Positions 10,875 through 60,558 of a DNA stretch of 64,000 nt are shown one piece after another (positions within the stretch are counted from its first letter, which is position 1; each line of letters begins with the position of its first letter). The position numbers and the translations under genes are program-made. Below the pieces are notes generated by a model. The model did not search any database. It saw only the letters and a program-made list of their open reading frames with translations, and was not told the DNA's origin. Source of the DNA: Haliotis asinina (Eukaryota; Mollusca; Gastropoda; Lepetellida; Haliotidae); contig NC_090285.1 of the NCBI RefSeq assembly GCF_037392515.1, positions 2,855,501-2,919,500 of the forward strand, given 5' to 3'.

Positions 10875-10976
10875 ATGCAGAGTCAAGTACGTCAGAACTT
10901 CCACGTCAACAGCGAGGCAGGCGTCAACAAACAAATCAACGTGTTGCTCAACTGTAGCTATGTCTACCAATCCATG
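10875..10976 (+). CDS. Ferritin 1 exon 1 (coding part)
   Basis: Encodes residues 1-34, ending ...CSYVYQSM directly before donor GTGAGT at 10977. The donor falls at the same codon position as in ferritin 2. The last 16 bases of this exon belong to the 36-bp tandem repeat that continues into the intron. Confidence 0.93.
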
Positions 10977-11341
10977 GTGAGTGTCATGTCTATATCTGTC
11001 TACCGATCGATGGTGAGTGTCATGTCTATCTCTGTCTACCGATCGATGGTGAGTGTCATGTCTATCTCTGTCTACCGATCGATGGTGAGTGTCACGACTA
11101 TATTGTTTCTACCATGTTATGGAGAAAGTCAAGCCTGTATGTACCGCCTATAGCTGTGGTGTCACGCCTATAGCTATGTCTACCATTCTGGGTGTCACGC
11201 CTATAAGCTATGTCTGCCATGTCTGGATGTCACGTCTATGACTATGTCTACCCTTCTGGGTGTCACACCTGTTGCTATGGCTACTATTCCATGGTGAGTG
11301 TCATAGTTTCCCATCATGATATTGCTCCCACCCCATCTCAT

Positions 11342-11394
<53 letters not shown>

Positions 11395-13613: not shown

Positions 13614-13862
13614 ACTGGTTCCCGGCCTCCCGGTCACCATGGTAACAGATGCTAACGACCGACAACGCCAACCGCTTATATCCAGTACTTTCTTGTAAGA
13701 ACCCAAATCTTGTAACAGGCACCCTTCATCCAGGGACAACTGACATGAATTCCAAAATGAGATGAAACATTTAACTTTTATACGTGTCTTATTTTTTATA
13801 TATTTTATTTGTTGAATTTTGTTAATGTTCCTTATAAACAACTCCTGGAAAAGAACATCTGC

Positions 13863-13868
13863 AATAAA
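13863..13868 (+). terminator. Ferritin 1 poly(A) signal
   Basis: AATAAA lies 250 bp after the stop codon, after an AT-rich 3' UTR, with a GT-rich stretch downstream. It is the first canonical signal after the coding end. Confidence 0.75.
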
Positions 13869-13997
13869 CCCAAGCATGTGAATGGACGTGTTCATCTTCT
13901 GTATACATCCTCAGTGATGTACCATGAGTAAGCATGGAATCACATCGTACGTGGTGGTCTCCCTGGACCTCCTACAGAAGGACTCGTCAGAAAGGAA

Positions 13998-14155
13998 TGG
14001 GTGAGTTTAGTTTTGCTAATAGCAATATTCCAGCAATATCCAGGCGTTGGGACACAACAAAATGGTTTCAGACACTGTATGTATATTGGGAATCGAACCC
14101 GGATCTTCGTCGTGACGAGCTAATACTTTAAACACCAGACAACCCTAAGGCCTCA
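13998..14155 (-). repeat. SINE family A, diverged copy
   Basis: Contains 'cagcaatattccagcaatat' and then 'gggaatcgaacccgg', the complement of a tRNA B box, in the same order as the fuller copy at 47.6 kb. Confidence 0.75.
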
Positions 14156-14171
14156 CAGTGGAAAATACCAG

Positions 14172-14300
14172 GTTGACTTTAGTTTTCGCCTCATTCAGCA
14201 ATATTCTAGCCATATTGCGGCGGTATGTATATAATCAAGTCTGGATCACAGAATTCATTGATAAACAGCATGAGCATCGATCTACGATGTTCGCAGAGGA
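14172..14300 (-). repeat. SINE family B, partial copy
   Basis: Shows 'tcagcaatattctagccat', 'gcggcggtatgtatataat' and 'aacagcatgagcatcgatct', matching the fuller copy at 44.4 kb. Orientation is given relative to the shared actcactc tail. Confidence 0.75.
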
Positions 14301-16910
14301 CGTCTGCCGCACCTCAGCACCGTACATTCAACGCTCTACATTACACTCTCTGCTTTCTGAGTTTCTGTATTCTGTTGTAAACATTCGGGTTACTACGATT
14401 GTGGTGAAACTCTTAATTTGTATATGTGTGACGAGTGTGTGGATTCTGTAAAGCTGATATGACGATTGAATAAGTGGACTCAAATAATTAACTAAAAGCG
14501 TAGCGCAGCGAAAGAGACACCTAAGCATCCTGTTGGACTGTTTCTGACAAATTATCAGCAGTTTTCCATTACGGTTCTAACAAACAGAACAGACACGTGG
14601 CTGTACCCGAAGGTCAAGGGTCATAACCCTCAGGAAACCATTACATCCGGTAATAGGTTTCTCAAGCTGACGTCATCATCAGCGGTATGGTCAGCAGAGT
14701 ACAGAGAGATGTTCACTCTGTTTTTGCTCCAGGAGCTAATGGTCATTTCAGAGGACATCACTGACAAATGCGCGGCGATATCCCTGGCATATGTGCACCT
14801 TTGTTCTGTCAACTGTCTGCATTCTACATTTTGCATTCGGCGTTCAGCTCTCTTCGCCTTACACTCTATGCTCACATTTCAAGCTTCACTGTGAAGGTTC
14901 TCTATTCAGATTGAAATATAGATTACAAATGTAAGATTATTACAACTAGGTATGACATCGTTATATACATATCAGGGAGCTGAACAATAAAGCAGCTTTC
15001 AAGTGTAATGTAACGCTGCTTCTATGCGCCTCTATATTTTGGACTGTATATTTTAAGTGGCATTTTAATATCATATCGGTTATTATCAGTTATCTTTTTT
15101 ACCACTTAATCCTAGTGGTCTGTGGTAAAACAGATTACACTATGATTATGAATAACCCCGAAACACCAACACCTTCCTGTATGTATTGACGCTAACGAAT
15201 ACAGGACACGTGACGGCATCCGCAGCCATGCATGCAATTACCTCGCTGTGAAGTTGCCCTTTCTGCCGCTAATGGTGTTGGTGTATGGAGTTGTAGTTAG
15301 CCAGTATCGAAGATATTAGTTATATTATCTATCTGCATCGTGGTGAGACTTGTAACACTAATTTTTAACGGTTTAAGGGAGACCTTTCTTCGGCTATCCC
15401 ACTAAATCCTTGCCCCCCTCCCCCTGACTTTGACCTCAAGATCAGAAAGAAGAGTTGTCTTCCATAGCAAACGGTGGCAAGATTGGTCAGCACCATCTTA
15501 CTATTACATCACTTTCAGGTGGAGGAAGGTCGTTAGAAAAAATCGTCCACGTAGGGTCGCATGTTACTACGTCGACGCTCCTTTGGTGCTCTAGTACCTT
15601 CATGTTGTCACTAAAACTTTTGTGAAATCATCACAATCGTCTCGTGGGCGGCCCTGTCCATCTACTCCATGTCCAAATCAGTGTCGCCTGATTACACATA
15701 ACTTTGTGTGATGATACATAATTGTCTAGCGTTATCAATACGTCCATTGAAACTCCGGGGGATTTGACCTCATAAAGATGTAGTACAGTACATTAAATCA
15801 ACATTTATATCACTAGATATGAATCCTATTTTCATACGCCACAAATGACGTATTATGTAAAGACTCACTGTGAGCACATTTGCAATTCCGTGTGAATAAT
15901 ACACCTAACACAACTTCCTCCTGTGACCTCGCTCATCGCCTTTGTCACACACTGGTTTCACCTCTTTCATAATATCATACTAGAGATTAATCATACTTTA
16001 CAATAAGCTGATACAGTCGTAAGAAGACTAAATGTATGGAGCGCTCGGTGTCGGGGACATGTATGCGGATTATCTTAACCCGACATGGTGTACGTGGCTC
16101 ATGATATTGATCATGATCAATCTTATTTACATAACGCTCCCGAATAACTGGAATCTTGAGTGCTGTTATATTATAAAGGCTCAAATGAAAAGTTCTGCGA
16201 GTTCCAGTTGCCAAGCCATCTGCATGATAACATGTGTTAGTTTCCCAGGTGAACACCTAGGCCACTTTAGGTGCACTATGGCAGATATGTGTGGGCACCT
16301 GCACGTCCACGTCTTGTGTGTGTGTGTACATGTGCTGGTGAGGACCGTGCACGTCAATGTGTGACGAGTATGCACGTCTTGGTGTGTGTCGATGTCTTGA
16401 CGTGTGTGACGTCTACGCCATGGTTGTGGATGTACATGTGCCTGTCATACACTTGATGACTTGGCACATTATATTTTTATTATATGTATGCATTAACGAC
16501 TGATGTACCTGACGACCACAGAACAACAATACAACAAGTGACAGTGTGTGAAAATGTGCAAACATCTTCCAGAATACATAAGGATCAGTTCAACACGGAG
16601 TCCTGACAATGTCCCTGTGTTGTCAATAAACTCCGCAGCTCCATAGTCGTCATAGCAGAGAGACAGGTTGACAAGTGGCCAGGGGGACAATATTTCATAA
16701 CGAAACACATTTACAGCATACAGATAGTGACTGGGAGACATTGACGCCTGGACTCGATGTGTGTATACATTCCATATACAGTATACAGATATGATAAGTG
16801 TCCATTTATTGCACCAATCACCTAGACGCCGGCTAGAACTGTACCACTTGTTGATATTATAATTTGGGGTGTCAGCTCACCAGATCATTTTTGCCGATGA
16901 GGATAACGCC
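14301..16910. other. Spacer without a gene
   Basis: AT-rich, with short open frames only and none recognisable. A GT-rich region at about 16300-16420 is simple-sequence-like. Confidence 0.5.
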
Positions 16911-16914
16911 TGTT

Positions 16915-17405
16915 TGGTGTGGTGGCCTAAGCACCTGAGGACGGACAGTCGGCGGTCGATCCCAGACTGAGACATACTAGAATGGGTTGAAAGGGGGGAG
17001 AGACACAGAGAGAGGGAGAGAGAGACAGAGACACACACAGAGAGGGGAGAGAGACAGACACAGAGAGACAGGGGAGAGAGAGAGAGACGGGGAGAGAGAC
17101 AGAGAGAGGGGGAGAGAGACACAGAGAGTGAGGGGGAGAGAGACAGAGACACAGAGAGAGACAGACACAGAGAGAGAGGGGAGAGAGACACAGAGAGAGA
17201 GGGGGAGAGATACAGACAGAGAGAGGGGAGACAAAGACACAGAGAGAGGGGAGAGAGACAGAGACACAGAGAGAGGGGAGAGAGAGAGACAGAGAGAGAG
17301 GGGAGAGAGACAGACACAGAGAGAGAGGAGAGAGAGACAGAGAGAGGGGAGAGACAGAGACACAGAGAGATAGGGGAGAGAGACAGGGACACAGAGAGAG
17401 ACAGA
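16915..17405. repeat. tRNA-like SINE head followed by a (GA)n/(CAGAGA)n tract
   Basis: A tRNA-like head with 'ggcctaagcacctgagg' and B-box-like 'ggtcgatcccag' (16925-16975) runs directly into about 420 bp of GAGAGA/CAGAGACA purine repeat. Long frames rich in Ser/Leu on minus or Arg/Glu on plus come from that tract. Confidence 0.85.
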
Positions 17406-19170
17406 GTTTCATCTTAGCTTCCTCCACATAATACAACTCGGCTGTAATGATCTAAATGCCCATATATTTGGCATACTTCTGTAGTTTGCTGCTACTAAAC
17501 CACGGTAAAATTTAATATGGATATTTAGTTGACCGAGAATGCCTCTCGACCCATATTTTTCAACCCGGACTACTCCTGTGGCCATTAATATGAAGATTGC
17601 TTTCATTTTTCTTATTTGTCCAAATCTTACTTAAATCTACAAAACCGTGTTCTTACTATTACAGTTTCACCTTAGATTCTGTTTTTTCTGACGACAAATA
17701 TGTCACAAGGAACACAAAGGTAGACATTCAGAATCTACATTATGTCCACTGCTTCGTGTCAGATTCTATATATTGTGATGAGGGAAATAAAAACTACACA
17801 CAACACGTGTCAGCTGTAGCTATTTTTATGTATTCCTGATTCGATATGCAGCTGGAAACTGCTATGTATACATGTGTATGTGTAGCAGTCCGTATTATGT
17901 TTCCTCATTAGCTGTAACATCTTCTTCACCAATCCTTATTCACGCAATGAAGATGCATTATCTACTGGACAGTGTAAACGGGAAATTAAGCTTGACAAAG
18001 ATTATACGGAACAATGCACACAGAGTGTTACCTTGAAGTGGTTTCACTTCATAAGATTGGATATGTAGACTCTTCATTGTGTGCATTCTGGATTGTTTGA
18101 ATTATAATTTCGTTAACTGAACCATCTGAAGTGTCAATCCATAAACTACCAACACTGCCGCTACTTTTAACTGTATTTTATTGACGGTCATACGGGGGTT
18201 TTATTACCCACGTGGTACTTCGTAAAGGTGTTTCATAACATATGTGTCATAACACCTTCGAGAGATTTGATTGGTTAATACGTGAACTTTGACGTTACTG
18301 GTACTACTTTCGTCACTCATTCATTCATGCTTTTCATTCACGTTTTCACACCTGAGAGCATGTAAAACGAAAACACTTCTATGGAATTAGATAAAATTTA
18401 TTTCATTTATTGTGGTTACTGGCATTATTTTCAATTCTATGCTAACTCAAGTTTCTGTAATAAAAACGAAAATAAACAATCTATAAACATACGTAAACAA
18501 ATACGTCTAGCAGGCCTCTCATGAGTGTAAACAAATATGGCGTCGCCCGTAAAAGATTGATTTCGTCAAAATTGACGGACAGTTGGTTGGAAGAGTTGTA
18601 AATGCTGTCAAGAGATTGAATACCTTCTGCGTGTATGTTGTCGGGACTGCACAGTAACACACAACATCAAAAGACGAGCGGCGCTCTTGTATCTCTATCA
18701 CTGCCACTGTCAGCCGCATCCATTCGCGTCCTTCCGCACAAACATATTGTCACTGCCATGCCTCCCGTGGTTTCTTATGTAGGGGTTCAAAACCACTTCC
18801 CAGAATCTGAACACAATAGGCTTGAAATCGTCTTCGTTCGAGGTTGTAGGCTGTGTTTTCAGACCCAATTTTCGGTGGAGTCTTCAACATAAACATCGAA
18901 TCTCGACAAGTGGGAATTCCAAGCCGAGATGAGCGTCGGCAAATTATTTACAGTAACTCGTCCTCCGATGAAGAACATTAAGTTCAACTATTTGAGACAT
19001 ACAGTTCCCTGTTATTCACGTTCATCTTTGCTGTTGAGTTTGCCGCTCCAAATTAAATGTCCCTCGTGAAATAATTTTGATTTGTCACTCACTAAAGCTC
19101 GTGACAAGTATTTCACGAGGGACATAAACTTGATATGAAAGGGGAAGCTCGTTTAATATCCTATAAATTA
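17406..19170. other. Spacer without a gene; two hairpins
   Basis: No exon recognised. A short inverted repeat (aaggtgtt / aacacctt) lies at about 18224-18258 and a longer one at 19057-19128. The 18.5-18.95 kb stretch is less AT-rich and could be an old mobile element; I cannot name it. Confidence 0.45.
19057..19128. repeat. Inverted repeat (hairpin) with arms of about 30 bp
   Basis: The left arm contains 'atgtccctcgtgaaata' and the right arm 'tatttcacgagggacat'. Pairing extends imperfectly to 'gtcac/gtgac' next to a loop of about 12 nt. It may be the end of a foldback element or MITE. Confidence 0.8.
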
Positions 19171-19174
19171 ATAA

Positions 19175-20300
19175 CCCTGTCCAAAACTATGGTCACACAG
19201 ACAATGTCTGTGGTCAGACGTATACAAAGTTCTCAAAAACATTCACTGTTCAATCCTAAGTCAACTGTAATGTGCATCACTGGAATCCTCTGCCATTCCT
19301 CATGAAGAACCTGTGCTAATCCCTGTAGATTTTGAACAAGTGGATCCTTTACTTGAACTTGACGCCCCAGATGGTCCCATAAATGCTCAGTTGGGTTGAG
19401 GTCAGGGCTTCTCGCAGGCCACGGTAATCTGTCAACTGCGTTGTTCTGCAAGTATGCGATAACAGCTCTGGAACGATGGGGCCAAGCATTATTGTCCATA
19501 AATACTGGCCGATTGGCGAGGGGTGGTTATCAAAATGCGGGACAACAGCAGCTTCCAGTACTTCCTGTTGGTATCTCTGACCATTGAGTGTCCCTTGAAT
19601 ATTGATAAGATTCAGCTTACAGTCATAGGAGATACACCCCCACACCATTACAGGACCACCACCAAAGGGTTCAGCTGCATGGATCATCCGCTGTTGATTA
19701 ACCTCATTACTCCTTCTCCAAACTTGTCAACGGCCATCAGTAACGCAAAGAAGAAAACGGCTTTCACAGGACCAATGGATCCTGCACCATGTCCTCAGAT
19801 TGTGGTTTTGCCGTTGATTACACCACGCCAAACGTTGAGCCTTGTGTCTATCAGTGAGTGTCTATCAGTGCTGCGACAGGACAAACCAGCTTCATGCATA
19901 CCAATAATCTGCCATCTGGTACTTTCAGAAAGCCTACGCCTCGGCATGTTACAAAAAGTCCAGTTTCAGCACTGTTCGCTTATTGATGCGTCAGTAAGAA
20001 AGCAATGAGGATACTTCATTTCACCTTTTATACCCCTCAGTCGCTTGTACCATGACGGAACTTTAGCATGAAAAGCATGTATTTGAGTCAGCACTTGAAT
20101 TTCATGCTAACTGCATGTGTATTTAGATATAACTGGCTGACGTCTCTGTTTTGATCATTTTTTGTTACAATCGACAATTGTTTTTGGTGGTGCTTAAGTA
20201 ACGCTTATGTGTATATTTCATCAGTATGTCAATGAATAACTTGATAATTAGTCATAATTTCAAACTTTACATATATCCCTAACTATTTTTGTCCAGTGTA
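19175..20300 (-). mobile_element. Tc1/mariner-like DNA transposon remnant
   Basis: On the minus strand the transposase starts near 19947 (MPRRRLSESTRWQIIGMHEAG, a Tc1-type helix-turn-helix start). Then come GGGPVMVWGCISYD at about 19640-19680, DNNAWPHRSRAVI and WPARSPDLNPTEHLWDHLG at 19380-19500, the DDE-domain block. About 715 bp remain of the usual near 1,020 bp. The middle is missing, and there are frame breaks and at least one stop, so it is dead. An AT-rich end at about 20258-20300 (complement 'ctggacaaaaatagttaggg') may be the right inverted terminal repeat; the left end near 19175 matches it only weakly. Confidence 0.88.
19233..19947 (-). pseudogene. Tc1-like transposase pseudogene
   Basis: Broken coding part of the element above. 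The N-terminal DNA-binding segment and C-terminal catalytic segment are recognisable, but they are in different frames and are separated by a deletion of roughly 100 codons. The D of the second catalytic block is seen as MDNNAW; the third position is in TEHLWDHLG. Confidence 0.88.
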
Positions 20301-22700
20301 TATATTTAGATATAGAAAAATACATATAAGTTCATAACTGTGACCAGTAGCTGATGGCGTTCCCTCGTCATTACAACACAATGCATAGATAAGCATAAAA
20401 TGTGAACTGGGTTCACACTGTGTCTGTTTACTATGGGTTGACGCACGCACACATTGGACAACAATGGTAGAATGTAACAAAAGCAAGCGGGTTGATCACG
20501 AGCCCACGAACGGCTAACGGGTAAGGGAAGCTTCACAGTGCTGATAATCCACTGACTCCGTGATTGGTGTCTGTGTTTGATTCGAGTGAGGTTGTCTATG
20601 TCACCAACTGAACACAAGAACACTGGACATGTTGACATCGATACTTTGTGCCCGATTATAAATATAGTTATAAGTGTCACTGATTTGTCCTTGTAACACA
20701 ACAGGGTGCTGCTTGACCCAGTTGCAGTGGTCCAAGATCACATATACTTGACTGTGTCAGATCTGGTGAAGGTTATCAATTATACAGACCAAAGTCATCT
20801 GCAGACAACATGCCACGTGTACGAACACGTTACCTCTGTATCTCTAATTGAGGCCAAGGTCTGTGTTTGAACATGTCTGAAATATCTGCGAAACATGATT
20901 AAAAAATAAATTTCAAACTTCAGTGCACTTAAAGTTTGTTTGGAGGTTGATGTATAGGTAAACTGACCGTGTGGTGACCATACATCCCAACAGAACTCAC
21001 CCCGAAAAACTTGCACAAGAACCGAACTCACCCTAACAAGGATACAACAACTGTTACCTCACCACAGGAACCCACCCAACCACGAGTCACACTGGAAATG
21101 GTACATCTGAACAGTGCTCGTTCTTGCAACGATACATCAGACCGATGTTCATGCTGATGATGACTGAATTTTCTACTCCTGACTCGATTATCTCCAAACC
21201 GCTGCCATATATAGCTGGACTGAGTGAGGAGTTAAACAACAAACAAACAACAATGCATCAGAACACAGCATTATGAGAATGGATACTCATATAGTGTTAG
21301 TAATATGAACTTACAGTTTCGACAGCATGTATCCAGCGGTGTCTCAGATGTTCACCTATACAGAATTAAGCTGCAATTTGAGAGATTTTACCACAATGGT
21401 CAAACGGAAATGGTCTTATAAAGGGGGAACTTTAATTTATAACGGAATTCGGAATAGTATCGTCCATGTTGGTCTCCATGGCTAACTAAACATAAACCAT
21501 ATTTCTGCACATGCTTAACAAATTTGGCTATGAGAATAGTTTTGAGTGTGGTCAACATTTAAAGAACTTGACACATATATACCGTGTTTAATTTCATTTC
21601 CGGAGAATTTCTAGTGACTGAAAACTTAAAACAACGCGACACATATAGACCATGTTTTACTTAATTTTCATTGAAAGTCCACAAAACATTTAATTCATAT
21701 CATCCAACCCCCAGCAGACTGTCCACCTCTCTGACATGTTGATTTCTACACATGTTCACGTCGTACGCACGCTAATAATGAGTAGATACATCAGTGATGC
21801 CACGGTCTGTTGTGGTCTTCATATCTAAGGTCACCGATTAAACATGGGTATCAACACTTGATACATCAGCTTCCCACGGGGAGAAGGCCCAGGTGATATT
21901 AAAAGCATAAGTCACACCTGTGATGAAAGACACCATTGTTCGGATAAGATAACGGTCACTTAGCTGTCCTCTTTCGTTGCTGAAAAGTCCGCTACTTGTA
22001 TAAGAAGTTATATAAGTGCCCGAGGTGAGTTTTTTTCATTTGAAATAAATAAACTAAGAATACCGCGACCTTTTAAATTGGTAACAGTTATATTAAATTC
22101 TGCTAAATGTACCCTAAATAACTGGTACAAATGCATCATCACGTCATGTTTTCGCACCAACTTTCCAACGTCTCACCCTTTCATTTAACGAACAAGATTT
22201 GAAAACCGTTTCTAGGCAAGACAATAAGACTGATTCTTGACTCCGTGTACTGGTGGAGCTACCACAAGGGAAATGTCTCATCAGCCTCAGCGTCTCCGGT
22301 GACATGCACTTACTCTGCAAGTGTCTAATTATATGTTTATCATATGCTGAGTGCGTTGTTCATTGTTAGTTGCAGACCATGTTGTAAATCTGTATGTTTG
22401 TATTCAAATCATTGTAAATCATGGTAGCTGACAACCAGAAGGTTGTACGCATATCGCTTGAAATGTCATTAAAAATGTCATTAGCAAACCTTCACTTTGA
22501 GAGCGTAACTTCGTTGTATGCAAAAGCAGGGTCTGTCTTCACCTCCATGCAGCAATGCATCTGTGACATCATGATCATGTGCCGCTCCAAGTCTCACCTG
22601 TCTGTGGTGGATGACGTCATCTGGGTGATAACGTCTCCTCACAAAAACTGTACAAGAACTGTAATACCAAGGAATGTGTGAGACATACCCAGGCGACTGT
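20301..22700. other. Spacer without a gene
   Basis: No exon recognised. A diverged plus-strand SINE family B fragment lies at about 21135-21240 ('gactcgattatctccaaaccg', 'gccatatatagctgga'). Confidence 0.5.
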
Positions 22701-22704
22701 CGGT

Positions 22705-22910
22705 CGTGAGTGAGTGAGTGACTTTAGTTCTCATCGTTATTCCAACCGTATGGCGGCGGTCCATAAGTGATCATGGTCTGGACCAGACAAACCAGTGATT
22801 AACAGCATGAACATCGATCTGTGCAATTGGGAACCGATGACAACCAAGTCGGTGAGCCTGACCACCCTATCCCTTCAGTCGCCTCTAAGGACAAGTATGG
22901 GTTACTGAAT
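22705..22910 (-). repeat. SINE family B copy
   Basis: Starts with 'gtgagtgagtgagtgacttt', then 'tggcggcggtcc', 'ctggaccagacaaacc', 'aacatcgatctgtgcaattg' and 'gtcggtgagcctgacca'. Its 5' portion has expanded into the tandem array that follows. Confidence 0.88.
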
Positions 22911-23210
22911 ATCACCCGATCCCTTCAGTCGCCTCTAAGGACAAGCATGGGTTACTGAATATCACCCGATCCCTTCAGTCGCCTCTAAGGACAAGCATGG
23001 GTTACTGAATATCACCCGATCCCTTCAGTCGCCTCTAAGGACAAGCATGGGTTACTGAATATCACCCGATCCCTTCAGTCGCCTCTAAGGACAAGCATGG
23101 GTTACTGAATATCACCCGATCCCTTCAGTCGCCTCTAAGGACAAGCATGGGTTACTGAATATCACCCGATCCCTTCAGTCGCCTCTAAGGACAAGCATGG
23201 GTTACTGAAT
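22871..23210. repeat. 50-bp tandem array, 7 copies, derived from SINE family B
   Basis: Units start at 22871, 22921, 22971, 23021, 23071, 23121 and 23171 and are nearly identical. Each contains 'cagtcgcctctaaggacaag' and 'catgggttactgaatatcac'. The same words occur once in ordinary SINE-B copies ('agtcgcctcttacgacaag'), so the array grew inside the SINE. Confidence 0.95.
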
Positions 23211-23414
23211 ATTAGGTCTAACTAGAATCGTTACAGGTGAGGCCGCATGATAAGCAATGGATGAATAGTATTTACTGACATTCGAAACCAAATCTGAAAA
23301 ATAAATAGATAATACTACTTTAAAAAATTTGTATGTACCCTCATAGAAACTGCAAATGTTAATCACGCAATCAATTTTGAAATTCATTCCTGACAAAAAT
23401 GTCTCATTAGCGAG

Positions 23415-23485
23415 TGCATGAGTGTATGCGTGTGCGTGCGTGTGCGTGCGTACGTGCGTGCGTGCGTACGTGTGTGCGTGCGTGC

Positions 23486-23524
<39 letters not shown>
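23415..23524. repeat. (GTGC)n / (GT)n microsatellite
   Basis: About 65 bp of 'gtgcgtgcgtac' type followed by about 20 GT repeats. The His/Thr and Cys/Val frames are artefacts. Confidence 0.95.
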
Positions 23525-23525
<1 letters not shown>

Positions 23526-24720
23526 CCTATTCATCATACCCGACACACCTTGATTATATCCTTTGGTGTTATTTGGTTTTTTACATCTACCTTGCCTTCA
23601 CTATTTTTCGTTTCTGATTTAATGTGTGCATACTAGAGCGTTATCGATGTACGTACTTATCAAGTTCGAGTATATATTATGGAAATAAAAATGTTTAAAA
23701 CAGAGAATATCTCCATCTATGTCTGTAAGTGTCATAAGAACAGCACGATCTATACATACATCCGGGAGATAATATATAAAACAAAGTGTTGAATGTAACA
23801 GCCAACGTTAAGGGAGGAAATGCTGATACTGTTCATCCCACTCCCATAGATAACTACATGCATTGTACGTAAACCCATTTGCATTACGCAAAACCACGTG
23901 CATTCTACAGACACCTGTGTCCACCATACAGACAGCAATATGCATTACACACACACGTGTCGTCAGTATACCTTTCGCCTCTGTGTTGTTATCGGGTACG
24001 TCCGGGGTAGAATATTGGAGTTCTGTAACCCATGTTTGTAGGAGACGACTCACGGGAGAGGGGGCCAGGATCGCTGACCTCCTGGAATAAATTCACTCAC
24101 TCACTACATGTATTGCCCTGTGATAGTGAAAATATTACATCTGTGTTAAGCGTACTGCGTCTAATACAGACACATGTCTGTGTTGTCAGTACTGCATGGA
24201 AAACTGACAGAATTAGATTGCTATTTATTGTGTGGACACTTCTAATTTTAAACATGCGAAATAAGATTAACTGCTAACTGATATATTCATGTAAGTAATA
24301 TAATTTGCTATATTAATAGCATTTGAATAACAGATAATAAAAGTGTGTTGTGAAAGAATTCATGAGATTTATTGACCCAAGCCTTTTCTCGTGACAGTTC
24401 GCTGGGTCGGTTTGTTGAGCGGTATCAGGTCTACCCTTATCCTTTATCCTTACACCCGTCTAAAGCATGAAGGCTCGGCAACAGTAGGAGATCACTACTG
24501 ACAGGTTCCTGCTTCATCATGTCAGTAAACTGTTCACCGATAATCGGTAGTTCAAAATGATCAAGTTCAGAGTGTCAGCAAATAACGGCCACCCGATATC
24601 AAGGAGAGATTAATGCTTTTACATGATGTGGTATCCGTGGACATGGATTCCTGATTATTACCTATGAGGGGGAACATATCGGGCTTAATATTTTCCATAC
24701 GATGCCCTAGGCCAAAATAT
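23525..24720. other. Spacer without a gene
   Basis: No exon or array recognised. 'actcactcactac' at about 24095 may be a SINE tail remnant. Confidence 0.45.
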
Positions 24721-24727
24721 CCCTAGG

Positions 24728-24967
24728 TCATAGTAACGTGACGTCATGAATAATGCCATGACGTCACATTTCTTCTGTTCTCATGTTTGAAAGTAGATTT
24801 GGGTTTATTTCCTTAACTTTCCTCAGCGACTTCGGTAATACACATTCGTGCCTAAATGCCGTTTTCGCTTTCGCTCGGGACACACCAACATTTAGGTAGT
24901 AAACTCACAATGAGATGACTTACAATCCTGTGACGTCAAAAAGCTTATGGCGTCACAATGCTATGAT
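24728..24967. mobile_element. MITE-like foldback element
   Basis: About 240 bp bounded by imperfect inverted repeats of about 38-40 bp. The left arm, 24728-24768, reads 'tcatagtaacgtgacgtcat' and ends 'tgacgtcaca'. The right arm, 24930-24967, starts 'tgtgacgtcaaaaagc' and ends 'acaatgctatga'. An inner pair 'cctaaatg'/'catttagg' adds a second stem. There is no coding capacity, which fits a non-autonomous DNA element. Target-site duplication not resolved. Confidence 0.6.
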
Positions 24968-26115
24968 ATAACTGCTTTGAAAGTCTAATGGTAATGCCGT
25001 GTTCAGAAATGAACATTTCTCATTGAATAATAATGAAGAGTGATTTTTTATGATAAGTAAAATCTCACCCTCGTGTCTGCTGATGCCAAATATAGCAGCT
25101 CTCCTTGATTAAAGTAAAAATATCCTCCGCAAGTCTCGGATATTTGTAAAGCTATAAATTCGTTGTGATATATTTGAGACTGAGATTCTCTATAAATTAT
25201 GTACTCGATCCATTAACTCTGTTTGCAGAAGACAAATCTGCCCTCGTTTTGTTTGAAATGTTGAAGGGGCTGTACATGCAGTTGTTGACCCCTGTCTGTG
25301 ACCACACCCAAATATATCACCGTCAACTCTTAACATACTGAGGGAAGTAAATAAGTGAACACCATTTTGGGGCAGTACTGATTCTTTTATTCTCGGATTC
25401 CCCACACAGTACTATTCAAAGCGGGTGATGAAAACTGGAAAATATCAAAGGAACACTTGATCTTTCCTGTGTTGCTTTATTTGTTTCTCTCAGTATATCT
25501 TCAATTCTCTTCACCTTCTTCATATAAGCTGAGGCTTAGACAGGTTTGCTACTTTTCACAACAACAAACGATGTTAGAGCTCTGTGAGTCTGACTCAGCA
25601 CTCACACCCAAATGACTGTATATTATTGGTGATCGTTTCATCTTCTGCAAGCGAATAACGTTAACTGCAAAGGTGGACGTCGGGCGTGGACCTGCATCAC
25701 GATCGGCTAAATTTGGGGATTCTGACACAAGCATAGGTGTTCCCAGAGGTGACAAGACAGAAAACCTTGGCCTCAGTCATTTGATGTGATAACACGATAA
25801 CCTCTCATATAATCACCTGGCTTTATCAGTGAACGTCTCTATGTCATCTATAAGCACAGACTATACAGCATCTCACCACATGATGCCCGATCTCATCTCT
25901 AATCTCCCAATCTCAGTCGGTCATTCACCATCCACATAATAATTAGCCACGAAAACAGGCACTGGTGGGAGGACAATTGTTTCTGCCAATTCGTTATTAC
26001 TCACAGAGCTCTAGATAATAAGAGTTTGTTGCTGCTTATCTGTAAAATATGCATGAATTCCACAATTTCTGCAGTAAAACAACATTCCGTGTACTCATCC
26101 AATCGCTAAAAGACT
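24968..26115. other. Spacer without a gene
   Basis: AT-rich, with short frames only; nothing recognised. Confidence 0.45.
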
Positions 26116-49783: not shown

Positions 49784-50073
49784 TCAAAACTTTATGTCTC
49801 CAACCATGAATGCTCTGAGCTTACTGATTCTGTCACCTCGTGAGAACGCATTGATGTCCCCTACAAGTAGGCTCTTCTGAAGATCGGGCTCGAATTTGGC
49901 GGCTGGAGGGTTGCGTCCGTAGGCAATGGCGACTTCCCTCAGATAGTAGGAAGCGCTGCCACAACACAGACCGATGTACTGTATGCCTAACTCCCGCGCT
50001 TCTGCAGCAAACTGGCGGATCTCAGCTCGGGAACACTGCAGGGGAGATAACTCTGCAGGGTACGCCTTGCTTC
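49784..50073 (-). CDS. BHMT: BHMT-like exon 7 (last)
   Basis: Acceptor TATCTAG. Starts inside a Gly codon, with [17 protein letters not shown] following, contains the zinc-binding GLCCG and ends FMVGDIKF then TGA (49786-49784). Confidence 0.92.
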
Positions 50074-53000
50074 CTAGATAGAAGAATGATATATCCTGAT
50101 CATATCCATGATACACTTATTGTTATAGAAATTAATATTTATAAAAGTTTACATCTTGCCCACAAGATTATAATGAAGCAATGGAGACACATTTCACCTG
50201 GTCATTGGAATTAAGGTAAAGACTGCAGCAAGAACGCTTGATTACCTGTGACCGGGTCTGTAAGACACTGGAAGCACTTCTGCTGAGGCGTGGTGCGGAA
50301 GGTGACAGGAAGTGCGGCAATAGGGCCCTGGGTAAAGAAAATAGTACAGCATTTAATATATGATGGCAAGCTTATTCAAATCTAAGATGTTATAGTTTAG
50401 GTAAAGTTCTGAATTTAAACCGTTAAATGTACAAAGAGACACTACACTGTCATCAACCAGGACTCGCCTTTCCTGAATTCGATCGTGAGCAAACAGACTC
50501 CATACTTTTGCACTAAGCAGTTAGAGGTATGTTTACAGACCCACCAGACGGTGCATTCACCTTACAAGCCTGTCGGATCTGCTGACCCACAAGAGAGTGT
50601 ACTCATCTTACAAGCCTGTCGGATCTGTGGACCCACATGAGAGCGTACTCACCTTACAAGCCTGTCGGATCTGTGGATCCACAAGAAAGTGTACTCACCT
50701 TACAAGCCTGTCGGATCTGCTGACTCACAAGGGAGGGTACTCACCTTACAAGTCTGTCGGATCTGCTGACCCACAAGAGGGTGTACTCACCTTACAGACC
50801 TGTCAGATCTGGTGAACCACCAAAGAGCGTACTCACCTTACAGACCTGTCAGATCAGGTGACCTACCTGAGAGCGTACTCACCTTACAGGCCTGTCGAAT
50901 CTGTAGATCCACAAGAGAGCGTACTCACCTTGCACACCTGTCCGATCAAGTGACCTATCTGAGAGCGTACCCACCTTACAAGTCTGTCGGATCTGCTGAC
51001 CCACAAGAGGGTGTACTCACCTTACAGACCTGTCAGATCTGGTGAACCACCAAAGAGCGTACTCACCTTACAGACCTGTCAGATCAGGTGACCTACCTGA
51101 GAGCGTACTCACCTTACAGGCCTGTCGAATCTGTAGATCCACAAGAGAGCGTACTCACCTTGCACACCTGTCCGATCAAGTGACCTATCTGAGAGCGTAC
51201 CCACCTTACAAGTCTGTCGGATCTGCTGACCCACAAGAAAGCGTACTCACCTTACAAGCCTGTCGGATCTGTGGACCCACAAGAGAGAACACTCACCTTA
51301 CAAGCCTGTTGAATCTGCTGACCCACAAGAGAGAGCACTCACCTTACAAGCCTGTCGGATCTGTGGACCCACATGAGAGCGTACCCACCTTACAAGCATG
51401 TCGGATCTGCTCACCCACATGAGAGCGTACTCACCTTACAAGCCTGTCAGATCTGTGGATCCACAAGAGAGTGTACTCACCTTACAAGCCTGTCGGATCT
51501 GCTGACCCACAAGAGAGTGTACTCATCTTACAAGCCTGTCGGATCTGTGGACCCACATGAGAGCGTACTCACCCTACAAGCCTGTCGGATCTGTGGATCC
51601 ACAAGAAAGTGTACTCACCTTACAAGCCTGTCGGATCTGCTGACTCACAAGAGAGGGTACTCACCTTACAAATCTGTCGGATCTGCTGACCCACAAGAGA
51701 GCATACTCACCTTACAAGTCTGTCGGATCTGCTGACCCACAAGAGGGCGTACTCACCTTACAGACCTGTCAGATCTGGTGAACCACCAAAGAGCGTACTC
51801 ACCTTACAGACCTGTCAGATCAGGTGACCTACCTGAGAGCGTACTCACCTTACAGGCCTGTCGAATCTGTAGATCCACAAGAGAGCGTACTCACCTTGCA
51901 CACCTGTCCGATCAAGTGACCTATCTGAGAGCGTACCCACCTTACAAGCCTGTTGAATCTGCTGACCCACAAGAGAGAGCACTCACCTTACAAGCCTGTC
52001 GGATCTGTGGACCCACATGAGAGCGTACCCACCTTACAAGCATGTCAGATCTGCTCACCCACATGAGAGCGTACTCACCTTACAAGCCTGTCAGATCTGT
52101 GGATCCACAAGAGAGTGTACTCACCTTACAAGGCTGTCGGATCTGCTGACTCACAAGAGAGCATACTCACCTTACAAGTCTGTCGGATCTGCTGACCCAC
52201 AAGAGGGCGTACTCACCTTACAGACCTGTCAGATCTGGTGAACCACCAGAGAGCGTACTCACCTTACAGACCTGTCGAATCTGTAGATCCACAAGAGAGC
52301 GTACTCACCTTACAAGTCTGTCGGATCTGCTGACCCACAAGAGGGCGTACTCACCTTACAGACCTGTCAGATCTGGTGAACCACCAGAGAGCGTACTCAC
52401 CTTACAGACCTGTCAGATCAGGTGACCTACCTGAGAGCGTACTCACCTTACATGCTTGTCGAATCTGTAGATCCACAAGAGAGCGTACTCACCTTGCACA
52501 CCTGTCCGATCAAGTGACCTATCTGAGAGCGTACTCACCTTACAAGCCTGTCGGATCTGTGGACCCACAAGAGAGAGCACTCACCTTACAAGCCTGTCGA
52601 ATCTGCTGACCCACAAGAGAGAGCACTCACCTTACAAGCCTGTCGGATCTGCCTCAGAAGTGGCAACATCGTGGCCGGCCCCCGGGCACAGTTCAGCCCC
52701 ACGACCGCCGCTCCCTCCTCTTCCAGCCTCCTCATGGCCTGGGGGAAGGGGACGTCGTCTGTGGTTCTGTCTGGGACATACGCCGCCATCGTGATCACAG
52801 CTGGAAGACCTGGGTGATAAGGGGAGACAACAGATATTGCTATTAAGTGCCTGTGGGTCAGGTTTTAAGTGGAAAAGCTATAATTGATGTCCGACAGAGG
52901 CATTGAAACTATCATGATTGTTTAAGTACTAGTTGATAGTATGTGCCAGTTGTCTTCTACATAAAAGATTGGCACATTTACCTTTTCCATACTTCCGGAT

Positions 53001-56000
53001 GGCCTCCAGAGCGAGGCTGGCCTCACTGCACGAATCGAATGTCTCCGCAATAAAGTAGTCCGCCTTGCCTTTAACAGCCCACTCTACTTGTTCCTGGGGT
53101 AAGTATATTTTTCAAATAAAAATGGTTGGTGATCCACTCTCAATTACCAGGAGTCACAGGATGTTAATGCATTAAAGATTATCAAACTCAAACACTAAAA
53201 AATTATATTTAGCAATAGGCCTCGGTACGCGTTCCCCAAAGTGACCAGTGTAATTGGTAATTCAACATTCGCTATTTCAGTCGTTAGTTGATATCAGACT
53301 ACATACCTTGAATATAAACTTAACCTCTTCCACAGACTCAGTATTATCAGGGTCATATATTGTTGTGTTACAAAGGTTTCCGGCCATTAACTTTCCCGTT
53401 CTGTCTGCAACATCTCGCGCGATCTCCAGAGCAGCGAGATTTAAGACCTCGAGATCATCTTCCCTTCCAACCATTCGTAGCTTTGCCCGGTGGCCGTAAT
53501 ACTGAAGACAAGGAATATATCAGCATCATCGTAGGTTCGGTGACCTTAATTCTAACGTGGATATCAAACTGCATGAACCTGAAGTTTGTTTCTCACTATA
53601 TAGTCGGTCATCTCTCGTTTTCACAGAATAACCGCATTCGAGGTTTTTGTTTTGTAGGGACAGGTTTTACTATTTTGCTAGAAAGTTTTACTTTTCGTTA
53701 GTAAGACCTCTTCCCAGGTTTTACGTTCTGTAGTCATCTTTTCCTAGCTGAACATCTACATTCAAATTATACATCAGTGTTTGAAATCCACTGAAAAATA
53801 TCGTTCAGGATTAAGGTCAAAGTGCAAATGATTTCCTAAGCAAAAATGGAACTGCATCTCTCCTATTTGTAGGTAAGCGCTCTACCGCAAAGCCACCGGA
53901 CCGACGAAGAAAATGGGGCTGAATTATCTATTCACAGTTACTGTCACTAAATCGATTTTATGTGAGGTTCAGTTATTGTTTATGTAATTTCAATAAATGA
54001 TCATCTACATTGTAATTATCCATCACTGACGGTATATATGTTAGAGACACTTCTCGGGATTTTCTCCCCGTCGGGTTTTATATTGTCTAACAAAACCTCG
54101 GAGGCATATTTTGTCCTGTACTACACAAACCTTCCAACCTGAGCAAGGTTACAGAGACCTAAAAGCCAGAGTACCTCATCAGTCTGCATTCACGTACAGT
54201 TAAGTGACATCAAGTGCTATGTATGATGAGCTGGGAAATAAGCATTGGCAGCCCTGGCAATGGATAAAAGAGATTCACCAGAACATGTCTCCATCTGCAG
54301 AACGGATTACACAATGGACAATAACAGACACTAATAATTGACTTAACGAGCAATATATACCGTAAAGGCCTCCACAACGTCACTCCCGGCATGGACAAAT
54401 TCTTCATGGAGATTTCGAACTCTCTCCGGATGGTCTATCACCACTTCAGGTGTAAATGCCCCGGATTTGAGAAAACCTCTTCTCTCCAGCTCCCACATGT
54501 ATCCCTCCGCGCAGATGACGTTCTCCCCATTTCGTAGTCTTTCCACCAAACCTTTCACTTGAAATATAATTGTTTTGGGAATCAGAACAGACGACGCAGA
54601 GGATAACGATTGATCGAAGAAGCCTTTGTTGTAATGGAGCAACACAATCGGCGATGATATTCAGCCAGGGTCTGTACAGAGCTCGACTGCTGTATACGTG
54701 CAGTTACTTATACTTACCTCAACATATTTCTTCTAAACACCAATGTGGGAAAGACACCTGGTTATATGGTAAGTTGAGTCAGTTAGGTTCTGTCAAGCAA
54801 ACGTGTCCTCTCCCCAACTTCTCTGAGTGACATTTTATAAGTTTGGAAGTACTTTAAGGATGGCAATTTCCTCTTCTGTACTCACGAGATAAAAGAAGGG
54901 GCTATCTAGACAGTCTGTTCTATATTGTTCTCCTTGTACAATAACATGCAGCACAAGGATCGACGTTAGTCATGTCAGTCACCGGATTGTCTCGTCTAGA
55001 CAAATTATGTAACGTCTTGATTACTTGACCTGTGACCTTTCAAAACATCTATCAAACGATCTCACCATGGTTGGAAATATTGAATGGAAGAAATGTGTCA
55101 ATAATACCTATAATATTTGTCAAGGAGACTTTATATGACTCCCCGACAGAGCCGATCGTACAAAACTTGCTGCACTCCTGTTCTGTGGAGCTGCATAATG
55201 TACCAGCTGATTGTATTGTCAGGATTTCAGATTTTGGAGGGCCTATGTAGACTGCATAAAACAAAACGCCTGCCAATCGTAACTGCTCGTCTCTTTGCGT
55301 AACCTAATCGCGCGTAGCAAAAAGCATTTCAAAACTTGAAATTGGCGGAACCGCTGAACTTTGAAACTTCGCTCAACTATACCAAGCACAATTTACACAT
55401 GAACTTTGAACTATATGATGAACAGCTTTCGCCACTGAAACATATTTGCAAAGGGTATGACCGCATTGCTGTTTTGCCCATGGTCACATGTCCCCCAAAA
55501 CATCAAGTACATATTCAGCTAGTTTGCCATACAGACCTTGGAACAAACATATCGACGAAAACCCATGCAAGTCAAGATTATGTGGCAGGTCTAGATTTAC
55601 ACAGCTTCAGGGCTCGTTTTCATTATATCACATTTTCGAGGGGTTTTTTTTGTTTGTTTTTCGGGGGCTTTTTTGTTTTTTGTATTTGTGTGTATGTGTG
55701 TGTTTTGTTTTGGTTTTTTTAGATTATTTGTTATAAACTGTTTTTCAATGAAATATGTTCATTTTAGAGTGGGAAGTAGAGTAGCTTTGTGGTTAAGCGT
55801 TCTATTTAGTGCAGGCTCTATTTAGTGCTCGACAGGTCAAGGCCAAGGTCGTCAGTGGCGAACGGGAACGACGTACTTCTGTTTGCGATGAATATATGTA
55901 CGATGACTATATGTACATCAACTCATTATGACAGTGAGGTGTGAGTGTCTCCGAAAGAAAGGCGATTAGCGCGTTGGCAGGTGTCATCAGTTCAACATGT

Positions 56001-59100: not shown

Positions 59101-60558
59101 AAATCTCACTTCAAACTGTAATCTAGCCGCAGACTGGTCGATAGCTACCACATAACAACTAAATCTCACTTCAAACTGTAATCTAGCCGCAGACTGGTCG
59201 ATAGCTACCACATAACAACTAAATCTCACTTCAAACTGTAATCTAGCCGCAGACTGGTCGATAGCTACCACATAACAACTAAATCTCACTTCAAACTGTA
59301 ATCTAGCCGCAGACTGGTCGATAGCTACCACATAACAACTAAATCTCACTTCAAACTGTAATCTAGCCGCAGACTGGTCGATAGCTACCACATAACAACT
59401 AAATCTCACTTCAAACTGTAATCTAGCCGCAGACTGGTCGATAGCTACCACATAACAACTAAATCTCACTTCAAACTGTAATCTAGCCGCAGACTGGTCG
59501 ATAGCTACCACATAACAACTAAATCTCATTTCAAACTGTAATCTAGCCGCAGACTGGTCGATAGCTACCACATAACAACTAAATCTCACTTCAAACTGTT
59601 ATCTAGCCGCAGACTGGTCGATAGCTACCACATAACAACTAAATCTCACTTCAAACTGTAATCTAGCCGCAGACTGGTCGATAGCTACCACATAACAACT
59701 AAATCTCACTTCAAACTGTAATCTAGCCGCAGACTGGTCGATAGCTACCACATAACAACTAAATCTCACTTCAAACTGTAATCTAGCCGCAGACTGGTCG
59801 ATAGCTACCACATAACAACTAAATCTCACTTCAAACTGTAATCTAGCCGCAGACTGGTCGATAGCTACCACATAACAACTAAATCTCACTTCAAACTGTA
59901 ATCTAGCCGCAGACTGGTCGATAGCTACCACATAACAACTAAATCTCACTTCAAACTGTAATCTAGCCGCAAACTGGTCGATAGCTACCACATAACAACT
60001 AAATCTCACTTCAAACTGTAATCTAGCCGCAGACTGGTCGATAGCTACCACATAACAACTAAATCTCACTTCAAACTGTAATCTAGCCGCAGACTGGTCG
60101 ATAGCTACCACATAACAACTAAATCTCACTTCAAACTGTAATCTAGCCGCAGACTGGTCGATAGCTACCACATAACAACTAAATCTCACTTCAAACTGTA
60201 ATCTAGCCGCAGACTGGTCGATAGCTACCACATAACAACTAAATCTCACTTCAAACTGTAATCTAGCCGCAGACTGGTCGATAGCTACCACATAACAACT
60301 AAATCTCATTTCAAACTGTAATCTAGCCGCAGACTGGTCGATAGCTACCACATAACAACTAAATCTCACTTCAAACTGTAATCTAGCCGCAGACTGGTCG
60401 ATAGCTACCACATAACAACTAAATCTCACTTCAAACTGTAATCTAGCCGCAGACTGGTCGATAGCTACCACATAACAACTAAATCTCACTTCAAACTGTA
60501 ATCTAGCCGCAGACTGGTCGATAGCTACCACATAACAACTAAATCTCATTTCAAACTG
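59101..60558. repeat. Nearly perfect 60-bp tandem array, 24.3 copies
   Basis: Units start every 60 bp from 59101 to 60481, with 18 bp more at 60541. The unit contains 'aaatctcacttcaaactgta', 'atctagccgcagactggtcg' and 'atagctaccacataacaact'. I count only five substitutions in the whole array (units at 59521, 59581, 59941, 60301 and 60541). Minus-strand frames of 167 and 316 codons exist only because 60 is divisible by three and the unit lacks a stop. It lies about 880 bp upstream of the BHMT-like start codon. Confidence 0.98.

Follow-up and report, generated by a model that had tools for sequence, protein, structure and literature searches.

The question of how the splicing machinery can pass over many decoy donors that match the real one in quality is posed by a gene of the abalone Haliotis asinina in which the end of one exon, together with its 5′ splice site, is repeated many times over in the following intron. 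The window that we analysed is a stretch of 64,000 nucleotides (C6:2855501-2919500), and positions below are those of the window unless another locus is named. The gene lies on the minus strand, and six coding exons, numbered 2-7, were read from about 54541 to 49784. Exon 1 was not found and the exon numbers are therefore provisional. On the matches of the joined protein to Pfam PF02574 (E 1.3e-36) and to BHMT1 structures (E ~1e-50), the gene is a BHMT-like homocysteine S-methyltransferase. Rfam and tRNA scans of the window gave no matches. The features of the gene and of its array are as follows, a slash marking the boundary within a splice-site word or residue pair.

54361..54541, minus strand: exon 2 (start approximate)
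53307..53501, minus strand: exon 3
52982..53093, minus strand: exon 4
52631..52809, minus strand: exon 5, 179 nt, the last 22 nt of which are the exonic part of unit 0
52625..52633, minus strand: real 5′ splice site AAG/GTGAGT, +1 G at 52630
52586..52588, minus strand: in-frame TAA, codon 15 past the end of exon 5, met with any later donor
50537..52652, minus strand: 46-bp minisatellite (a mirage, a term taken up below), 46 units, from k=0 (real exon 5 end and donor) to k=45
50767..51226, minus strand: units 31-35 and 36-40, two identical 230-bp blocks (coordinates derived from unit numbers)
50328..52630, minus strand: intron 5, 2,303 nt, of which the array makes up 2,079 nt
50246..50327, minus strand: exon 6, 82 nt, continuing the frame of exon 5 (K/G)
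49784..50073, minus strand: exon 7, the last coding exon, including the stop codon

Introns 2, 3, 4 and 6 are 859, 213, 172 and 172 nt long; intron 5 minus its array comes to about 224 nt, similar to most of its neighbours. Each unit of the array extends from exon base -22 to intron base +24 and so consists of 22 exonic and 24 intronic bases. The +1 G of the 46 donors is found at 52630 - 46k on the minus strand for k=0-45, free of indels, the last being at 50560, and Tandem Repeats Finder reports a period of 46 with 45.6 copies, 82% match and 0% indels (50557-52652). The first-pass annotation had described a 46-bp repeat of the gene's own exon end and donor in 45 extra copies at exact spacing, and we confirm all of this, except that the exonic part of the unit had been put at 21 bases instead of 22. 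Its statement that nearly all copies keep AAG-GTGAGT holds for the GT, which 43 of the 45 extra copies retain, and is a little too strong for the full word, which is exact in 36 of 45. The donor words across all 46 sites are AAGGTGAGT (37 sites), AAGGTGGGT (5), AAGATGAGT (2), AGGGTGAGT (1) and AAGGTGAAT (1).

Donor strength was expressed as the pairing energy with the 5′ end of U1. The real donor pairs at -11.8 kcal/mol and the median of all 46 sites is -12.1, while the gene's four other donors read range from -4.6 to -8.4. A value of -10 kcal/mol or better is reached by 43 of the 46 array sites, as against 0 of 162 GT sites elsewhere in the gene stretch, which excludes a chance origin of the donor array. 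Tandem arrays are a common source of assembly error, and the length or the very existence of this one might be wrong. The exactly spaced units are, however, diverse (31 distinct among the 46), and related arrays with unit types of their own are present at other loci; an assembly artefact is in our estimation extremely improbable.

The order of the units records how the array grew. Units 31-35 and 36-40 are identical over 230/230 bp, and this pair is the clearest recent growth step. A four-unit block recurs as units 3-6, 16-19, 32-35 and 37-40, and 12 of the 46 units, namely units 0, 1, 2 and 45 and eight inner ones, belong to no near-identical run of at least three units. The identical blocks and the recurring four-unit block bear out the repeated rounds of growth that had been proposed; the five-unit (230-bp) higher-order pattern is real but local only.

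An alternative end for exon 5, such that the repeated word would not be the boundary, was checked through homologues. With the joined protein as query, a single scan of bacterial and archaeal genomes gave 46 loci, 42 of which span the exon 5/6 junction with about 25 residues on each side. All 42 are gapless at K/G, gaps being found further along in three of them, which places the in-frame junction between the first donor and the exon 6 acceptor. No other exon end is indicated, and the repeated word is the true end of exon 5. The intact frame across exons 5 and 6 suggests, as far as protein homology can tell, that splicing is normal despite the repeats. The stop at codon 15 past the true donor had been placed correctly, and use of a later donor leads to a premature stop. 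After the first extra donor this stop lies 83 nt before the exon 6/7 junction, by arithmetic from the 82-nt exon 6. By the usual rule, a stop that far before the last junction is expected to trigger nonsense-mediated decay.

We think it likely that the array is a mirage-type minisatellite of which the first donor is used while the remainder leaves as intron, and that its turnover is tolerated. A 46-bp segment across the exon 5/intron 5 boundary would have been tandemly duplicated and then expanded in several rounds. The spliceosome would use the exon-proximal (first) donor, probably because it is the earliest to be transcribed and no other donor borders a complete exon that has an acceptor. 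All that follows this donor, including the 45 mostly equal donors, would be removed as intron, so that growth of the array would be close to neutral. If a later donor were used now and then, the mRNA would contain the codon-15 stop and would be expected to undergo nonsense-mediated decay. A protein that is intact only with the first donor fits exon definition or first-come recognition, we infer. Simple tolerance of the donor sequence, which the first-pass annotation had offered as a fallback, is thus the best-supported reading, the use of the first donor in the mRNA being deduced from protein homology; the evidence for a benefit from the array is thin. RNA structure that hides the decoys was rejected as a discriminator: over six folding settings, from 1 to 23 of the 45 copies were more open than the real donor, and one single setting taken alone would have favoured structural hiding.

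Minisatellite-like tandem duplications of exon-intron boundaries have been named mirages in amphioxus, where they are found in Adh3, globin, troponin C and PGBD5 genes (PMC3087553, PMC3902484). The accessible text of these reports describes concerted evolution, length instability and undisturbed splicing, with units of 150-160 and 157 bp in globins, 10-72 bp in Adh3 and 60 and 108 bp in PGBD5; one globin has 6 and 3 units (PMC3087553, PMC3902484). As in amphioxus, the unit of the BHMT-like array straddles an exon-intron boundary, the splice signal survives in many copies, evolution is concerted and copy number is unstable. A further mirage trait, boundary units that escape homogenisation, has an ambiguous parallel, as units 0, 1, 2 and 45 lie outside the near-identical runs but eight inner units do too. 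Unlike the amphioxus examples, the array has 46 units of 46 bp, and its host is a mollusc, not a cephalochordate. The BHMT-like array is a mirage, and the class is already known. The novelty of the idea is therefore less than had been implied, judging by the accessible parts of the published amphioxus work (PMC3087553, PMC3902484). No mirage outside amphioxus was met in the literature examined, which leaves out most subscription journals. An abalone intronic minisatellite with differing repeat numbers has been reported, and in the accessible text it is not stated to span a splice site (PMC6905558).

A second mirage is present in the window, at the first exon of a ferritin-like gene.

10875..10976, plus strand: coding part of exon 1 of the ferritin-like gene, ending in ATG/GTGAGT between 10976 and 10977
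10961..11103, plus strand: second mirage, comprising the exon 1 end, its donor and 3 more copies; 36-bp unit, in frame (12 residues per unit)
11158..11304, plus strand: older, decayed copies of the ferritin exon-end word, with local alignment scores of 48, 39 and 27

The scores of the decayed copies compare with a maximum of 26 in 500 shuffles, and the last of these copies retains ATG/GTGAGT. Over 10961-11304 on the plus strand, three intact in-frame copies are followed by decayed ones, so that young and old stages stand side by side. The joined ferritin-like protein, including the exon 1/2 junction, is gapless against PDB chain 9x0l. The read-through insert of this mirage would be in frame and stop-free, and decay therefore cannot be the safeguard in every case. 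Another ferritin-like gene lacks an array of this kind at the donor of its exon 1. The best PDB matches of the two ferritins are TsFerA and TsFerB entries, and ferritin was the only Pfam family found when two plus-strand frames of 11000-25998 were scanned.

The 17 tandem arrays listed for this window make up 19% of it (12,395/64,000 bases), among them arrays of 47 bp x 77, 34 bp x 45 and 60 bp x 24. Fifteen of the 17 overlap no exon identified here. The other two span one of the 22 identified junctions, where 0.23 would be expected (Poisson p 0.022, a post hoc value, one array having been given beforehand). The 60-bp array (59101-60558), whose 24 copies are 99% alike, is open in one minus-strand frame but for one break; its unit is a multiple of three, and the openness may be due to chance.

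The word AAG/GTGAGT could also act as acceptor and donor at once, so that the intron would be taken out in multiples of 46 nt, invisibly as far as the mRNA is concerned. AG/GT is present in most units, the gene's real exon 4 acceptor is as pyrimidine-poor (0.44) as the array sites, and tandem dual-specific sites exist in human UBC, according to the accessible text of that report (PMC10809524). The pyrimidine fraction of the array sites, however, has a mean of 0.44 and a maximum of 0.50, while the four remaining acceptors read have 0.69, 0.81, 0.75 and 0.75, and the ferritin-like mirage has ATG/GT, so that the feature is not general. Removal by such recursive steps seems to us very unlikely. 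The UBC array resembles the present one in being a tandem repeat with AG/GT at the unit boundaries; as described in the part of the source available, its units are coding and its sites are shown to be used (PMC10809524), whereas the BHMT-like copies are intronic, their unit is not a multiple of three and their acceptor context is weak. Splice-like words are likewise copied by tandem duplication in intron gain through tandem genomic duplication of AGGT segments, as far as the accessible text goes (PMC3443670), whereas in the BHMT-like case an existing intron has been enlarged. Microexons built from pseudo-acceptors within the array were rejected because these are too few, 2 of 200 AG sites reaching a pyrimidine fraction of 0.75.

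Searching the 1.14-Gb assembly with the exon 5 peptide identified 16 places. Four copies on C6, that of the window included, are identical in 60/60 exon 5 residues, differ pairwise at 2-7 of 179 nt, and have the same exon 5/6 junction. At the exon 5 donor they carry 46, 24, 5 and 2 units, copy number thus being unstable among copies, with a spacing that is mostly 46 bp, in some cases 45 and in one 53. The two-unit paralogue has a second unit that can be followed no further than its donor; this one decoy (-10.7) is stronger than the real donor, GTGAGC (-9.6). Over the four arrays the extra units keep GT in 69 of 73 cases and a perfect donor in 59 of 73. The nearest neighbours of 68 of these 73 units all lie within the same array, as expected if each array turned over separately, and unit types are array-specific; this is concerted evolution. 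The 46-bp array is absent at the donor in all 11 diverged paralogues read, two of which have a short repeat (3-bp or 11-bp period) near the donor; the count leaves out a twelfth diverged place, L073, which is a partial match with two internal stops.

Such a series invites the reading that the array is a dosage rheostat, in which its donors compete for U1 and the exon 6 acceptor, a wrong choice leads to an early stop and decay, and copy number sets enzyme output. Unit numbers of 2, 5, 24 and 46 among four near-identical paralogues would suit this, as would the read-through stops in all four (codon 15 in three, codon 30 in the fourth) and the strength of most array donors, which equals or slightly exceeds that of the real one (-12.1 against -11.8 kcal/mol). 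In paralogue L056, however, the first extra donor is at a spacing of 45 and would give an in-frame insert, as would the ferritin-like mirage, and decay is therefore not a shared feature. We hold a rheostat to be improbable.

Tolerated turnover has to accommodate an observation that counts against it. Within the window array, variation is lower in the donor columns than elsewhere in the unit, with 5 parsimony steps in 9 columns compared to 66 in 37 (permutation p 0.02; 0.012 on distinct units). Pure neutrality does not require this difference, and upkeep of the donor by selection is suggested for this array. Across nine arrays the conservation of the donor window is inconsistent, with ranks of 2/46, 9/46, 1/40, 22/40, 29/49, 14/53, 36/51, 12/45 and 32/35 in a test biased towards conservation, its consensus having been built from units with perfect donors. 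The test took 20 of the 24 units of L055, and no exon is seen at two of the nine arrays (L110 and L117). Donor selection as a general rule was rejected on this inconsistency, despite the hint in the window array.

The same data bear on the proposal that the array serves as a U1 reservoir, binding many U1 particles and thereby guarding the transcript against premature cleavage (telescripting) or tethering it to the splicing machinery. The 43 of 46 sites whose pairing energy with the U1 5′ end reaches -10 kcal/mol would allow such binding, and the less variable donor columns of the window array are in keeping with it. Against it stand the paralogue with just 2 donors and the lack of consistent donor conservation across the nine arrays. 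Protection from premature cleavage, which had been put forward earlier, is unsupported, as the 4,765 nt of the gene span contain a single ATTAAA, outside the array, and AATAAA nowhere; a literature search on telescripting found nothing relevant. A reservoir is, in our judgement, highly improbable, and tolerated turnover remains the preferred reading.

Arrays of donor words are not confined to this gene family. For each of several donor words we counted triplets at 25-55 bp gaps genome-wide, with overlapping matches and the reversed word as control. Triple-array matches numbered 303 against 98 for AAGGTGAGT, 281 against 65 for CAGGTAAGT and 657 against 83 for CAGGTGAGT, while single occurrences of word and reversed word were 11,002 and 11,610, 12,478 and 10,565, and 12,862 and 6,369, respectively. 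Relative to how often the words occur, triple tandem arrays are thus about 3 to 4 times more frequent for donor words than for reversed controls, an excess that is tempered because a few long arrays supply most of the matches. It could reflect preferential growth or retention at donors and to that extent also counts against plain tolerance. Among the AAGGTGAGT matches listed (100 of 303, from C1 to the start of C5) there are 14 distinct arrays, compared to 8 for the control in the same interval. Exon adjacency was read for these 14, leaving out the reversed-word controls and the CAGGTAAGT and CAGGTGAGT arrays, so that the share of mirages lacks a matched control. Three of the 14 adjoin exons with direct homology support and one more lies in a ZNRF3-like gene; others were read by eye.

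L112: nicalin exon (2.5e-21; match reaches the last exon residue)
L116: lysosomal alpha-mannosidase exon (4.7e-5; match to residue 36 of 37)
L109, C2:15533200-15539600, minus strand: M1 peptidase exon (7.5e-7; match to the last residue before the donor)
L105, C1:64196900-64205100, plus strand: ZNRF3-like gene, identified via an upstream exon (7.4e-6)
L104: signal-peptide-like first exon (by eye only)
L111 and L115: short exon-like stretches (by eye only)

The array in the ZNRF3-like gene has a 40-bp unit x 53 with a perfect donor in 51/53, hence more decoys than the window array, and adjoins a membrane-span-like exon. The 53-bp unit at the M1 peptidase exon (5.3 copies by Tandem Repeats Finder, six perfect donors) contains both an acceptor-like and a donor word and could make tiny exons. 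At L108 an exon read by eye is presumably DDX31-like; it has no PDB match. On the minus strand of L106 (C1:74716000-74722300) an acceptor-side mirage was seen by eye, with several tandem copies of a pyrimidine-rich AG boundary; the exon that follows, on the strand opposite to the donor word, we take to be SLC22-like. No exon was seen at the array at L107, L110, L113, L114 and L117, and Pfam scans of sequence upstream of six of the 14 arrays, in three frames each, gave matches for two only.

A broader proposition would be that boundary-spanning minisatellites are recurrent in this genome and are seeded or kept preferentially at strong donors, that the number of decoys tunes output via decay, and that the BHMT-like copies form a natural dose series (2, 5, 24, 46). 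Taken as a whole, we regard it as unlikely.

New from the genome are the paralogues with 24, 5 and 2 units, the ferritin-like mirage and the donor-word arrays in unrelated genes. With these, mirages, which the literature examined, in its accessible parts, has from amphioxus, would be extended to an animal lineage far removed from it. Within a single gene family, nearly the same exon 5 comes with 2, 5, 24 and 46 near-equal donors, and other genes repeat the experiment. If the first donor always wins, this would be direct evidence for an exon-proximal or first-transcribed rule that beats dozens of equals.
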